Shown: positions 53,451-59,649 of the stretch, one piece after another
Layout: every line of letters begins with the position of its first letter
Numbering within the stretch: the stretch's first letter is position 1
Assembly: GCA_022226955.1 (NCBI GenBank)
Contig: CP092079.1
Span: 2,569,043 to 2,633,042, forward strand
DNA length: 64,000 nt
From: Nitrospira sp.
Lineage (GTDB): Bacteria > Nitrospirota > Nitrospiria > Nitrospirales > Nitrospiraceae
Direction: 5' to 3'
Notes under the pieces: model-generated
The model's input: the letters and a program-made list of their open reading frames with translations, nothing else
What the model was told of the DNA's origin: nothing
The model's database searches: none
Program-made: the position numbers and the translations under genes

Positions 53451-54896
53451 TTACTCCTGAGCTGAGCGGGTCTTGAGTGCGTCCAATCGCTTCTTGTCCA
53501 GACTGATATGAAGCGACTTCTCTTGTGTCACCGTCACGGCGCCTGGCGCCTGGCCTTTGGCTTTCTTGACCCATTTACGACGAGTGTAGATCACGTCGCC
53601 CTTGCCGCTTTTCTTCAGATCGCTATACAGCAAGGCCAAGGTGGCGGCGTCCCGGATGGTTTCCGGCGGCGGGTCGCTGCCTTTTTCCAGGCGTACGACC
53701 ACGTGCGAGCCCGGTGTTCCACGGGCGTGAAGCCAGAGATCGTCGCTCTTTGCAAGGCCAAACGTGAGTTCATCGTTCTCCCGCGCGTTTCGTCCCACGA
53801 AAATCGGGAGTCCGTCGGAAGAGGTGAAGCGGCGGAATGGGCCGCGCCGTTCGTCCGGTCGATTGCTCGATGTCGCGCGATTTTTCCGCCTGGTGGGCGA
53901 ATGAACGGATGTATCCGGCGGCGCTGGCAGCCAGGTGTCTTGTTCAATGGAGTGCAATTCCCGGCGTAACGCATCGATCTCGGCTTCTCCCTGCGCGATG
54001 CGAGGGAGCAGTTCGCGCTCAGCGGTATCGTGTTTTCGCTGTTTCCGAAAGTAGTCGTCCATATTGCCTTGAGCGGATTTCGTCGGATCGAGCGGGATTG
54101 TAATGTGGGGCAACGCTTCGTCGAAATAGTCGACAACGACGACCGACTCCAGTCCCTTCTTGATGGCGCCCAGATTTGCCTTCACCAATTCTCCGTAGCG
54201 GGCATAGTTCCGATACTTTTCGGCCTTGGCGAGATCGTTCCGCCAGGCCTCCACGCGCCGGCCCTGTTTCTTGATCGCTTTCTTGAGATGGTGCGCGCGC
54301 GCTTCTTTCTGGGTGGCAAACCTGTCCGTCGATTCCTTCTCATCGTAATGCGACTCAATCGCTGCAGACAGGCCGAAGGGGTCTTGGCGATTGGGTGTGA
54401 AACGAACCTCTCGTTCGCGCTGTGCAAGGCCGGCTGGCAGGGCAGGCAGCTGATATGGCTTGCCATAGAGGTCTTGTGAGCGATTCAGGTCTCGCAGCAA
54501 ATGTCGTTCCGCATCCAGCACCAGAAAATTGGCGCGGTTGCCGGTCAATTCGCCAATTAATTGACGGGGGCCTGCGCTGGTCGTCAGCTCGATTGAGACG
54601 ATACGGTCAGAACCTTCCTGGCGAAGATTATCGATGCGCGCGCCGTGGAGATGGGCTCGGAGGTATTGGCAAAAAGCTGGTGGCGCCGGCGGATTCTGCA
54701 ACGCACGAGTGGCCAGGTGAATGCGGGTCGATGCGGGATGGGCGGAGAGCAGCAGGCGCTGGGTGCGTCCAGGCGTTCGGATTTCCAGCACGATCGTTCG
54801 CGCGGTCGGTTGATAGGCTTTTTGGATCCAGCCGCCTATCAGCGCCGACGCTATTTCCGCCACGACGTTGGTAATTTCTGTCGCTGTCAGCGCCAT
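53451..54896 (-). CDS. NFACT-family protein, RqcH-like
   Basis: A 481-aa cytoplasmic protein of the NFACT (Rqc2/RqcH/Tae2) family. The N-terminal NFACT-N domain has PPAFCQYLRAHL and the Asp97-Arg98 pair (EGSDRIVSIEL) that in RqcH contacts tRNA. The middle is a coiled coil (KKQGRRVEAWRNDLAKAEKYRNYARYGELVKANL) and the C-terminal NFACT-R domain has LWLHARGTPGSHVVVRLEKG. RqcH adds C-terminal Ala tails to nascent chains on stalled 50S subunits. Complete and solitary. Confidence 0.9.
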   Translation of the reverse strand: MALTATEITNVVAEIASALIGGWIQKAYQPTARTIVLEIRTPGRTQRLLLSAHPASTRIHLATRALQNPPAPPAFCQYLRAHLHGARIDNLRQEGSDRIVSIELTTSAGPRQLIGELTGNRANFLVLDAERHLLRDLNRSQDLYGKPYQLPALPAGLAQREREVRFTPNRQDPFGLSAAIESHYDEKESTDRFATQKEARAHHLKKAIKKQGRRVEAWRNDLAKAEKYRNYARYGELVKANLGAIKKGLESVVVVDYFDEALPHITIPLDPTKSAQGNMDDYFRKQRKHDTAERELLPRIAQGEAEIDALRRELHSIEQDTWLPAPPDTSVHSPTRRKNRATSSNRPDERRGPFRRFTSSDGLPIFVGRNARENDELTFGLAKSDDLWLHARGTPGSHVVVRLEKGSDPPPETIRDAATLALLYSDLKKSGKGDVIYTRRKWVKKAKGQAPGAVTVTQEKSLHISLDKKRLDALKTRSAQE

Positions 54897-55180: not shown

Positions 55181-55408
55181 ATGAAGTGCACACGATGTGA
55201 AGGCCTCATGGTGGTCGACAATCTGATCGATCTACAGGAAAGCGGCATCCCCATGTGGATGCGCGGTTTGCGCTGCGTGTCCTGCGGCAATATCGTGGAT
55301 CCGATGATTCTGCGTCATCGCAGAAGTCAAAAGTTAGGAACGATGCGATTGCTGAAACCCGGTGTCCTGGTTCCTGAGTTTGCAAGACAGCTCAAAGCGA
55401 CGGCGTGA
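55181..55408 (+). CDS. Small zinc-ribbon protein
   Basis: A 75-aa protein with two CxxC motifs (MKCTRCEG at the N-terminus and LRCVSCGN in the middle), which together can form a zinc ribbon, then a basic C-terminal tail. The ATG at 55181 follows the Shine-Dalgarno GGAGG. The longer frame upstream is non-coding. Possibly an RNA- or DNA-binding regulator. I have the impression that such proteins are common in Nitrospira-like genomes. Function unknown. Confidence 0.7.
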   Translation: MKCTRCEGLMVVDNLIDLQESGIPMWMRGLRCVSCGNIVDPMILRHRRSQKLGTMRLLKPGVLVPEFARQLKATA

Positions 55409-55549: not shown

Positions 55550-55589
55550 CTCTCGTGTTTCATTGTGATTCTTAAGGGAGGCTGCACAG

Positions 55590-57155
55590 GTGCTTCTATT
55601 CGATACTCCATCTTTGCTTGCGCTGACTCGTGAGTTCCAGTTGTCCATGCGGCGGCTACTCCAGGAGCTTTGCCGAGAGTTGCAGGACGATTATAGTGAA
55701 CTGGCCACGCAGCTTGCGTTTCCGACAGATGCTGTGCAAGCCCTGAGTCGCAGGCTGAAAGTCGAGGACTTATCCAATTGGAAAGTGGTCGGATGGATCG
55801 AGTCGCTGAACGACTTTGTCTACTTCTTGGATATTTGGCAGCAATGGCGGACAGAGTCGAACCGGCGGGAATTTGCCGAGCAACTATTTACCGAGTGCCA
55901 GGAAAAGTTTTTCGAAAACAGTTATCTCGACGAGTTATTTCCCAAAGGGAAACCGCAAGTCAGTGGCTTGGACGGCAGGCTTTCGCGCCTGTGCAAACGA
56001 CTGACTCAGGACATTGCGCAAGAGGCATTGTGGCTCGATCCCGCTGTGGCAACGGCCTGGTGTCGTACGCGCCAGGCCGTTTCGTGGCCTGTGCCGGGTA
56101 GTCTGGCGCAGAACTTTGAGAAGGCGGAAGAGGCCGGTGCCGTGCCGCTCGGAGTGGCCGGGGATCAATGCGAAGCGCCACCTGCAGTAAAGCGTGTGCT
56201 GACGCGCGCAAAGGGTCGGGCGGCCTTTCTGGTCGATGAGGCAGGGATTGCATTGAAAGCCGGACGCCTGCGTGTTCCGGTCTGGACCGTTGTCGACGGG
56301 CAGGCGCAATGGCATTGGGCTGTGCGTCCAACAGCTGAAGTGCTGTGTACGTCTTATGGCGCAGTGACGGTCGGTTCCACCCTTGTCTATGGCAAAGACC
56401 GTCAGCCGAAAAAGGTGGTTCCGACAGATCCCAAACAAGCCGCCCGTATCAGGCGGGCTTGGGAAACCATTCATCTTGTGTGGCCGGAAGGGCATGAGGT
56501 TTTGGCGCTGTTGACCTCGCGAATTATTCCGCTCAATGCCAAAGGCGTCGTCAGCTTCAGCTACCGCCATCGTCCAGGCCTCTCCTTCATCAACTGTTTC
56601 GACCGGGACAATCTCGATCTCATCGACGATCTGATTCACGAGAACAGCCATCATCACCTGAATTTGCTCCTGCGCAAGCACGTCATGTATCACGGCGATC
56701 GCAATCAACAGATTTTCTACTCGCCCTGGCGGCGGAGCCTGCGACCGCTACGTGGCATCCTCCATGCGACCTTTACGTTTACGATGGGCGCACTGTTGTT
56801 CGAGCGATTATCGTCGTGGGCTGAAACGAAGCAGGGGATGCAGCAATGGAAAGCCGCCGGGCTGACACAGCGCGATCTTCTGCGGGCGCGGTTCCGTTGC
56901 CTCGAAGAGATCGAATCTGTCCGCTATTCTATTCAAGACCTGGAATATGCAGGCAGTCATCTGAAGTGGCTGACCGGTTCAGGCGCACGCCTAGTGAGGC
57001 AGTTGGAAGAACAGATTGGGAATGCGGAAGCGCGCATCGTCCGCCACCGGGAAGCGGTCCTCAGCTCCACCTTCGGTCCTGCCCTCCGCCGTCATATCAA
57101 AGAGCTTCACCAGGCCAGGCAGGTTTTGGGGCCGGTGAGATTGGGGGAGGTGTAG
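55590..57155 (+). CDS. HExxH-motif protein resembling 2-oxoglutarate peptide beta-hydroxylases
   Basis: A 521-aa cytoplasmic protein starting with GTG. Residues 350-354 are HENSH, preceded by DLIDDLI and followed ~25 residues later by YSPWRRSLRPLRGILHATFTF. That combination (HExxH, YSPWR, RPLxGxLHAxYxF) marks the group usually annotated as HEXXH-motif putative peptide-modification proteins, some of which are Fe(II)/2-oxoglutarate beta-hydroxylases of RiPP pathways. Coiled segments fill the N-terminal 180 residues and the C-terminus. No precursor peptide or RiPP partner is seen in the flanks, so the substrate is unknown. Low similarity to classical metalloproteases makes peptidase activity less likely. 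Confidence 0.82.
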   Translation: MLLFDTPSLLALTREFQLSMRRLLQELCRELQDDYSELATQLAFPTDAVQALSRRLKVEDLSNWKVVGWIESLNDFVYFLDIWQQWRTESNRREFAEQLFTECQEKFFENSYLDELFPKGKPQVSGLDGRLSRLCKRLTQDIAQEALWLDPAVATAWCRTRQAVSWPVPGSLAQNFEKAEEAGAVPLGVAGDQCEAPPAVKRVLTRAKGRAAFLVDEAGIALKAGRLRVPVWTVVDGQAQWHWAVRPTAEVLCTSYGAVTVGSTLVYGKDRQPKKVVPTDPKQAARIRRAWETIHLVWPEGHEVLALLTSRIIPLNAKGVVSFSYRHRPGLSFINCFDRDNLDLIDDLIHENSHHHLNLLLRKHVMYHGDRNQQIFYSPWRRSLRPLRGILHATFTFTMGALLFERLSSWAETKQGMQQWKAAGLTQRDLLRARFRCLEEIESVRYSIQDLEYAGSHLKWLTGSGARLVRQLEEQIGNAEARIVRHREAVLSSTFGPALRRHIKELHQARQVLGPVRLGEV

Positions 57156-57203: not shown

Positions 57204-57383
57204 ATGGCACCTATGAAAAGTACTGCTCTCAAAGCAAAGAAGCCTGCCGTGCGTAAGCCAAAAAAGGACGGCCTTTCTGAGTCTGCCGCAATGCAGCGCA
57301 AGGTAAAGCAAAGCTTTGCCGAGCAGATCGATGCGTTTATCGACCGGTATCGCCCTGCCCTAGAAGCCCTCGCCAAGCGGTGA
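57204..57383 (+). CDS. Presumed antitoxin of the Doc pair
   Basis: A 59-aa protein, basic in the N-terminal half (MAPMKSTALKAKKPAVRKPK) and helical in the C-terminal half (QSFAEQIDAFIDRYRPALEALAKR). Start at ATG 57204. The ATG at 57213 is possible. Its TGA overlaps the GTG start of the Doc gene by 4 bases, which is typical of antitoxin-toxin order. It is not of the Phd type. A shortened second copy lies at 57777. Confidence 0.72.
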   Translation: MAPMKSTALKAKKPAVRKPKKDGLSESAAMQRKVKQSFAEQIDAFIDRYRPALEALAKR

Positions 57384-57775
57384 TTTACCTCAGTGTCGAG
57401 CAGGTCCTCTTTCTTCACGATCGTCTGATCGAAGAGACGGGAGGTCAGCACGGAGTCCGTGACCTTGGCGGCCTGGATTCTGCCTTGGCTCGTCCGCAGG
57501 CTGCCTTCGGTGACACAGAGTTTTATCCCGATGTGTTCAGCAAAGCGGCTGTTCTGCTGGATGGGTTGACGCGGAACCATCCGTTCATCGACGGGAACAA
57601 GCGAATCAGTATTTCGACGGCTGCGTTATTCTTGCAGACCAATGGTTATCGCCTGACCGCGACGAATCACGACCTGGAAGAATTTACCCTGCATGTGACG
57701 ACGATGAAGCCGGGCCTCGATCAGATCGCCGATTGGTTCAAGGGGAAGACAGTTCGACGGCCCAGCGGTAGGTAG
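57380..57775 (+). CDS. doc: Doc/Fic-type toxin
   Basis: A 131-aa death-on-curing family protein. The Fic signature HPFIDGNKR is at residues 67-75 and the rest (YLSVEQVLFLHDRLIEETGGQHGVRDLGGLDSALARPQ) matches Doc, which phosphorylates EF-Tu and halts translation. It has the full expected length. GTG start overlaps the antitoxin stop. Complete, so it should be active unless neutralised by the preceding product. Confidence 0.92.
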   Translation: MIYLSVEQVLFLHDRLIEETGGQHGVRDLGGLDSALARPQAAFGDTEFYPDVFSKAAVLLDGLTRNHPFIDGNKRISISTAALFLQTNGYRLTATNHDLEEFTLHVTTMKPGLDQIADWFKGKTVRRPSGR

Positions 57776-58853: not shown

Positions 58854-58878
58854 GGCCTGGGGGTGTGCATCGTTGTTA

Positions 58879-59649
58879 GGGCGTGTCATCAATTAAGCCA
58901 CGTGAGTGAAGCGGCGAGATAGATCGCGCCGAGGAAGTTAACAGCCCGTTTGTCGTAGCGCGTGGGATGGTTCTGTTGGCTTTGGGGGGAATGACGATGA
59001 CCTTGCCCGCTTGTTGCAGCGGCTGGATCACCCGTTCATCGGCATCAAAGGCCTTATCAGCAAGGATCATGTCCGCCTCAAGGCCAGGCAGCAGGGCATC
59101 GGCTCCGTCAAGGTCATGGGCTTGTCCTGGCGTGAGGTGAAACCCGGTGGGATTGCCCAGCGCATCGCAGGTCGCGTGGATTTTGGTCGTCAAGCCCCCC
59201 TTTGACCGTCCGATGCATTCCGTGTCCTGGTCCCCCCTTTTGCACCCGCGCTGTGCTGGTGGGCACGGACAATGGTGGAATCGATCATCGCGTATTCATT
59301 GTCGAGATCCTCGGCGAAATGCTCGAACACTCGCTTCCAGACCTCGCGTCGACTCCAGCGCGTATGACGCGTGTGAATCACTCGGAAATCTCCGAACCGC
59401 TCCGGTAGATCTCGCCACGGGATCCCGGCGCGATACCGGTACAACACGGCTTCGACAAACAACCGGTTGTCCTTCGCCGTCACGCCTACGGTCTCTTCGC
59501 GGCCTGGCAGCAGATGCTCAATCTTCTCCCACTGGTCATCACGCAACCCGTACCGTCTCACCATCCGCAGGCCCCTCCCTCGGCCTGTGACGGAGTGAAT
59601 CACAACACGATGGCTCTGTGAACCCAGAAAATTAATTGATGACACGCCC
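58879..59649 (-). mobile_element. IS5-family (IS427-like) insertion sequence, internally deleted
   Basis: A 771-bp element bounded by perfect 20-bp inverted repeats when the flanking TA is counted (TAGGGCGTGTCATCAATTAA at 58877-58896 and its exact complement at 59632-59651). TA on both sides fits a 2-bp target duplication. It carries a transposase on the minus strand. Lacks the ~25-30 codons before the C-terminus, so it cannot move by itself. Confidence 0.92.
58889..59564 (-). pseudogene. IS427-type transposase, frameshift-dependent and truncated
   Basis: The N-terminal part (MVRRYGLRDDQWEKIEHLLP, YRYRAGIPWRDLPERFG, MIDSTIVRAHQHSAGAKGG) carries the first DDE Asp. The second frame continues from an AAAAGGGGGG slippery run (near 59240-59250) with GRSKGGLTTKIHATCDALGN and the second Asp region (ADKAFDADE), as normal for -1 frameshift transposases. 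The next segment should hold the catalytic Glu but is deleted after PPKANR. A different frame then resumes (HPTRYDKRAVNFLGAIYLAA...) to the native stop at 58889. Inactive. Confidence 0.9.

Follow-up and report, generated by a model that had tools for sequence, protein, structure and literature searches.

Why should a gene of an enzyme family known from RiPP pathways stand alone on a Nitrospira chromosome? The question is raised by an open reading frame in the window, the whole 64,000-nucleotide stretch of Nitrospira sp. contig CP092079.1 analysed here, that combines a HExxH motif with the signature of the aKG-HExxH oxygenases. We took it up by asking what the protein is, how widely and in what manner the gene is inherited, and what is encoded beside it in relatives.

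The protein, its fold and its conserved residues

The frame begins at a GTG codon and codes for 521 residues. Against TIGR04267 (NCBIfam, aKG-HExxH peptide beta-hydroxylase; IPR026337), for which the curated cut-off is 40 bits, it scores 72 bits (E 5.7e-20), and 75 bits when the model is run on the genome. The gene and its parts are as follows.

55590..57155, + strand: aKG-HExxH family protein, 521 aa (ORF, TIGR04267, fold match, family core gene)
55574..55581, + strand: AAGGGAGG, read from the sequence as the likely ribosome-binding site; 8 nt separate it from the GTG
55590..56084, + strand: N-terminal helical region, residues 1-165 (model secondary structure)
56085..56420, + strand: beta-rich middle region, residues 166-277 (model secondary structure)
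56451..56834, + strand: TIGR04267 match, residues 288-415 (NCBIfam profile)
56637..56651, + strand: HENSH, residues 350-354, with two His as putative metal ligands and the Glu by family analogy (H350, E351, H354 invariant)
56718..56767, + strand: YSPWRRSLRPLRGILHA, residues 377-393, comprising YSPWR (377-381) and RPLRGILHA (385-393) (alignment conservation)

Comparison with solved structures gave the same assignment. In a phmmer search of PDB sequences the frame matched ChlH (8s5f, E 1.2e-10) and, more weakly, SjiH (22nu), and a search with the family profile returned both at E 2.3e-20 and 5.2e-10, respectively. A first structure model, with 25 orthologues in the alignment, reached a pLDDT of 83 and had a weak loop at residues 363-385, which was fixed in a second model based on 39 more diverse sequences (pLDDT 93.4, pTM 0.91). 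The second model matches the HExxH domain of ChlH with Z 24.5 (rmsd 3.1, 293 of 320 residues aligned; Foldseek E about 4e-8) and SjiH (22ob) with Z 21.3 over 375 of 409 residues, whereas among the remaining chains compared, all of them Foldseek's own matches, the next best is a helical bundle at Z 9.8 and the M1 aminopeptidases reach Z values of about 5-6. The alignment to ChlH 394-718 and SjiH 15-417 takes in the helical N-terminus, which is therefore part of the family fold.

HExxH is the classical zinc-peptidase motif. No Pfam model covers the frame, however, and no Pfam peptidase model matches it at E values up to 1; with a TIGR04267 score well over the cut-off and a likeness to ChlH and SjiH far above the next chain compared, the protein is a member of the aKG-HExxH family and most probably not a metalloprotease look-alike. 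The first-pass annotation, made from the letters alone, had read HENSH followed by YSPWR and RPLxGxLHA and had placed the product with HExxH peptide-modification proteins, naming a grouping with some non-RiPP metalloprotease family as the contrary outcome. All of these motifs are present, the placement is upheld by the sequence model, by the sequences of solved structures and by the predicted fold, and no such grouping appeared in these comparisons.

Residues H350, E351, H354, P379, W380, R381, R385, P386 and G389 are invariant in an alignment of 39 sequences that takes in two distant copies from radical-SAM gene clusters, as is E440. The same residues, E440 aside, were also identified in ChlH and SjiH, giving a HExxH and PWR..LRP motif common to all three proteins. 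This conservation is compatible with iron and 2-oxoglutarate ligands: R381 and R385 are candidates for binding 2-oxoglutarate, and H392 is the obvious candidate for the third metal ligand, although an uncertain one, as the position varies within the family (H in the core copies, ChlH and the copy L212; D in the copy L211; Q in SjiH). D370 was considered for the same part and dropped because, while invariant in the genus set, it is lost in L206 and L216.

Distribution, inheritance and the RiPP-type copies

The complete 3.64 Mb genome from which the window comes has one TIGR04267 gene. We surveyed 395 Nitrospirota genomes, counting by hand, of which 110 belong to the same family (which we took to be Nitrospiraceae) and 285 to others. 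The gene is present in 108 of the 110, nearly always as a single copy, comprising 54/54 genomes of the genus among the matches listed and 54/56 genomes of the other genera; outside the family, matches over the cut-off occur in 4/285 genomes. A separate profile search of 295 genomes gave an agreeing distribution. Nearly every genome of the genus has a full-length orthologue with 58-90% identity, and both the dN/dS of the core gene (about 0.07-0.10) and the dN of its catalytic region between near relatives (about 0.01-0.02) point to strong purifying selection. In the tree, the core copies form one clade that a long branch parts from the two distant copies; because the branches of these two are very long, only their separateness was used. 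Near-universal presence in the family, almost always as a single copy, descent in one clade and low dN/dS together show a vertically inherited core gene rather than a mobile one, and tblastn found no plasmid relatives. Among the matches listed by a GTDB-wide pattern scan, the 80 loci are Nitrospira-type by title, one of them titled Nitrosospira; the patterns were so narrow that they would pass over distant relatives standing alone in other phyla.

Two genomes of the family, G237 and G224, gave no TIGR04267 match in the survey. G237 has lost the HExxH gene while its NFACT and zinc-ribbon neighbours (described below) are still in place, and the gene is therefore not strictly essential. G224 also has no NFACT over the cut-off, so that a missing contig is a possible explanation there.

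A link with nitrite oxidation was considered, and none was seen. Three genomes of the same order (G036, G050 and G052) have NxrA-sized molybdopterin enzymes, as judged with a model that stands in for NxrA only distantly, without a core HExxH copy: TIGR04267 matches are absent from G036 and G052, and the one in G050 is of the RiPP type. The complete genome of the window, which has the core gene, in turn contains no NxrA-sized type-II DMSO-reductase-like frame (best match 48 bits), such as most relatives have; this Nitrospira may lack nitrite oxidoreductase, or the part of the sequence in question may be masked.

The four copies from outside the family (L064, L210, L212 and L219) have a different setting. 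Each has a radical-SAM protein beside it, the two being separated by a frame of 2OG-Fe(II) oxygenase type, and in the two loci that were scanned (L064 and L212) the cyclophane maturase YhhB and the oxygenase YhhC are matched over the cut-off. These loci, with radical-SAM YhhB, 2OG oxygenase YhhC and aKG-HExxH enzyme side by side (L064:5497-8327; L212:6860-9431), are probable RiPP clusters of related families. The end of the radical-SAM gene in L064 is overlapped by a 61-aa frame that terminates in YNRTYNRHNR and may encode the precursor. Inside the family, distant second copies occur in G246 (L211:6886-9736) and G018 (L218:2911-7027), both next to SPASM radical-SAM proteins, PapB-like and HxsB-like, in genomes that keep the core copy too. 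Like the core gene, the RiPP-type copies match TIGR04267 over the cut-off and, in those read, have the same catalytic motif; unlike it, they are shorter, about 20-24% identical, patchy in occurrence and adjoined by radical-SAM maturases of YhhB/YhhC type or PapB- or HxsB-like. With the outside and second copies beside such maturases and the core copy alone, the lineage therefore has both kinds, the patchily distributed copies of RiPP loci as well as a single core copy that stands by itself.

Neighbours of the core gene and the roles they suggest

Conserved frames of at least 25 aa were sought in 69 loci, up to 3.5 kb from the core gene. Only four genes proved to be conserved, encoding an NFACT protein, the zinc ribbon, a downstream PKD-domain protein and an amino-acid permease, and the other conserved frames are overlaps of these four in other frames. 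The neighbour set as a whole adds Fic and transposase genes and, in one clade, MBL and BFN genes. Besides the zinc ribbon, no conserved small precursor-like frame of this size was found in the 69 loci, and none of them has a RiPP enzyme, exporter, transporter or peptidase beside the gene. The core gene is thus solitary and lies outside any RiPP cluster context. For the window this had already been remarked in the first-pass annotation, which had advised a search for short conserved peptides near the gene in relatives; the remark is confirmed across the 69 loci, and the search brought to light no such peptides of at least 25 aa other than the zinc ribbon. The solitary setting also supports its suggestion that the enzyme's target may be a distant peptide or a cellular protein. 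The neighbours and the further gene that the following argument needs are these.

53451..54896, - strand: NFACT / RqcH-like protein, 481 aa, divergent neighbour (NFACT_N 1.9e-65; RqcH 7as8 4.1e-65)
55181..55408, + strand: zinc-ribbon protein, 75 aa, a neighbour judged to be a non-partner (CTRC and CVSC; distribution)
G000:C1:58522-59277 (locus L222:4944-6557, - strand; G000 being the genome of the window): solitary MNIO-like gene (PF05114)

Downstream, the window has a Fic/Doc-family gene (57380-57775, +; PF02661, 1.9e-19) with a 65-aa frame overlapping its start, likely a toxin-antitoxin pair, which is sporadic in relatives. Further on, two adjacent frames (58876-59645, -) look by eye like one split IS5-type transposase, and relatives differ in how long the locus is on this side.

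Every characterised member of the enzyme family acts on a RiPP precursor (PMC12636437, PMC13060819, PMC12707348), and for this reason a trans-encoded precursor has to be weighed. The protein would then be a solitary tailoring enzyme for a RiPP shared across the family, hydroxylating a precursor from an unlinked locus, a role that we regard as unlikely. Scattered pathways are possible, and a second RiPP-type iron oxidase family is used outside obvious RiPP clusters in these bacteria: a divergent MNIO of 500-540 aa (PF05114, bufferin-maturase-like, 43-68 bits) is encoded by a solitary gene, adjoining dihydrouridine-synthase-like and Maf-like genes, in 15/15 family genomes tested. That the core gene has no precursor, transporter or peptidase near it at any of the 69 loci argues against a RiPP role, however, as does its near-universal occurrence at low dN/dS, which is unlike that of the patchy RiPP copies of the same phylum. 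A SPASM radical-SAM protein that occurs throughout the family was considered as a RiPP partner, but proved to be NirJ/AhbD-like (heme type) and not a peptide maturase.

The NFACT gene raises the idea of a part in ribosome quality control, in which the enzyme would modify stalled nascent chains or C-terminal tails together with the divergently encoded RqcH-like protein. NFACT is the most constant neighbour, lying divergently upstream in 59/69 loci (30/32 in the genus, where the other two are cut by contig ends, and 29/37 elsewhere), and outside one clade it adjoins the gene in all but one of the loci where the contig reaches; it aligns well to B. subtilis RqcH, and oxidation of Ala with cutting of the backbone is possible for the family member PflC (PMC12636437). 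Nevertheless, we consider this role improbable. The link is broken in L174 and in one well-supported clade of 10 loci from 6 genera, in which the HExxH gene mostly follows a gene for an MBL-fold hydrolase and a BFN-domain gene and NFACT is mostly found at another place in the genome (G212 has none over the cut-off), and related families have NFACT without a core HExxH copy. As the PKD-domain protein (52/69 loci) and the permease (50/69) on the opposite side are almost as constant, plain synteny is enough to account for the association, which may be nothing else, and the case for NFACT as an obligate partner is weakened accordingly. The window's NFACT protein aligns to RqcH at both ends with about 100 middle residues missing (RqcH 141-269 against 136-175) and keeps the D-R motif.

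Hydrolysis instead of oxidation at the HExxH site, as in a zinc metalloprotease, is very improbable. PflC without its leader peptide also shows proteolysis (PMC12636437), which means that a measure of hydrolytic capacity persists in the family; the lack of any matching Pfam peptidase model, a fold far closer to the aKG-HExxH oxygenases than to the M1 peptidases and the invariance of the PWR..LRP arginines of the oxygenases all speak for oxidation in the window protein.

That the zinc-ribbon protein (a weak TFIIB-type match, below the Pfam cut-off) might be the enzyme's partner or substrate, as the first-pass annotation had wondered, is barely credible and finds no support in its distribution, which largely refutes an obligate partnership: it lies directly upstream on the same strand at 39 of the 69 loci scanned but is missing from most of the others, where the HExxH gene stays, it has 5 to 15 paralogues (small CxxC...CxxC proteins) in most family genomes, its close copies in G118 and G191 stay with NFACT while the HExxH gene is elsewhere, and in G237 it has outlasted that gene.

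A probable stand-alone hydroxylase beside the characterised members

We therefore favour, as the probable reading, a stand-alone Fe(II)/2-oxoglutarate HExxH hydroxylase of peptides or proteins, whose substrate is encoded elsewhere and is probably endogenous. By analogy with characterised members, the two His of HENSH would hold Fe(II) and the arginines of PWR..LRP would bind 2-oxoglutarate, a cosubstrate that the family binds by basic residues (PMC12614342). A bound peptide or protein substrate would trigger oxygen activation, and one of its side chains would be hydroxylated or oxidatively cleaved. Near-universal occurrence in single copy, strong purifying selection and the absence of RiPP neighbours make a conserved endogenous substrate likelier than a precursor, and a conserved cellular protein or peptide more probable than a secreted natural product. 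The core distribution of a solitary gene likewise suggests a housekeeping role in hydroxylating proteins or peptides. A more specific proposal, that the gene represents a branch of the aKG-HExxH oxygenases with a housekeeping task outside RiPP pathways, a family-wide Nitrospira-type hydroxylase of an endogenous protein possibly engaged in translation or ribosome quality control, is put forward tentatively, at somewhat less than even chances.

The aKG-HExxH family is already known; of its solitary, family-wide core branch we found no description in the open-access papers searched, nor did we find, in the open-access literature, papers linking Nitrospira with the family. If the reading is true, an enzyme class known from RiPP pathways also serves basic cell physiology, and a form of protein hydroxylation new to bacteria takes place in environmentally important nitrifiers. 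For genome mining, the locus is a caution against reading a TIGR04267 match by itself as the sign of a RiPP cluster.

Those family members that have been characterised, namely PflC, PosC and ChlH (PMC12636437) and PesO (PMC13060819), are Fe/aKG hydroxylases. PflC and PosC from Pseudomonas and PesO from Peribacillus belong, by description, to the same family as the window protein and carry out Fe(II)/2-oxoglutarate-dependent beta-hydroxylation, of Gln/Asn by PflC and PosC and of Pro by PesO (PMC12636437, PMC13060819); their genes belong to RiPP clusters that also encode a precursor, an MNIO and transporters, whereas the window gene does not. SjiH (22ob, 22nu), on which we found no publication in the open-access literature, is matched by the model over its full length at 16% sequence identity, and differs in having Q at the position of H392. 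ChlH shares the fold, the HExxH and the PWR..LRP..G.LHA motif. Its aKG-HExxH domain (8s5f; Morishita et al. 2024, as cited in PMC13060819) is, however, part of a fusion with a radical-SAM maturase, and its substrate is a cyclophane RiPP precursor, while the window protein, free of RiPP neighbours, is larger and stands alone.
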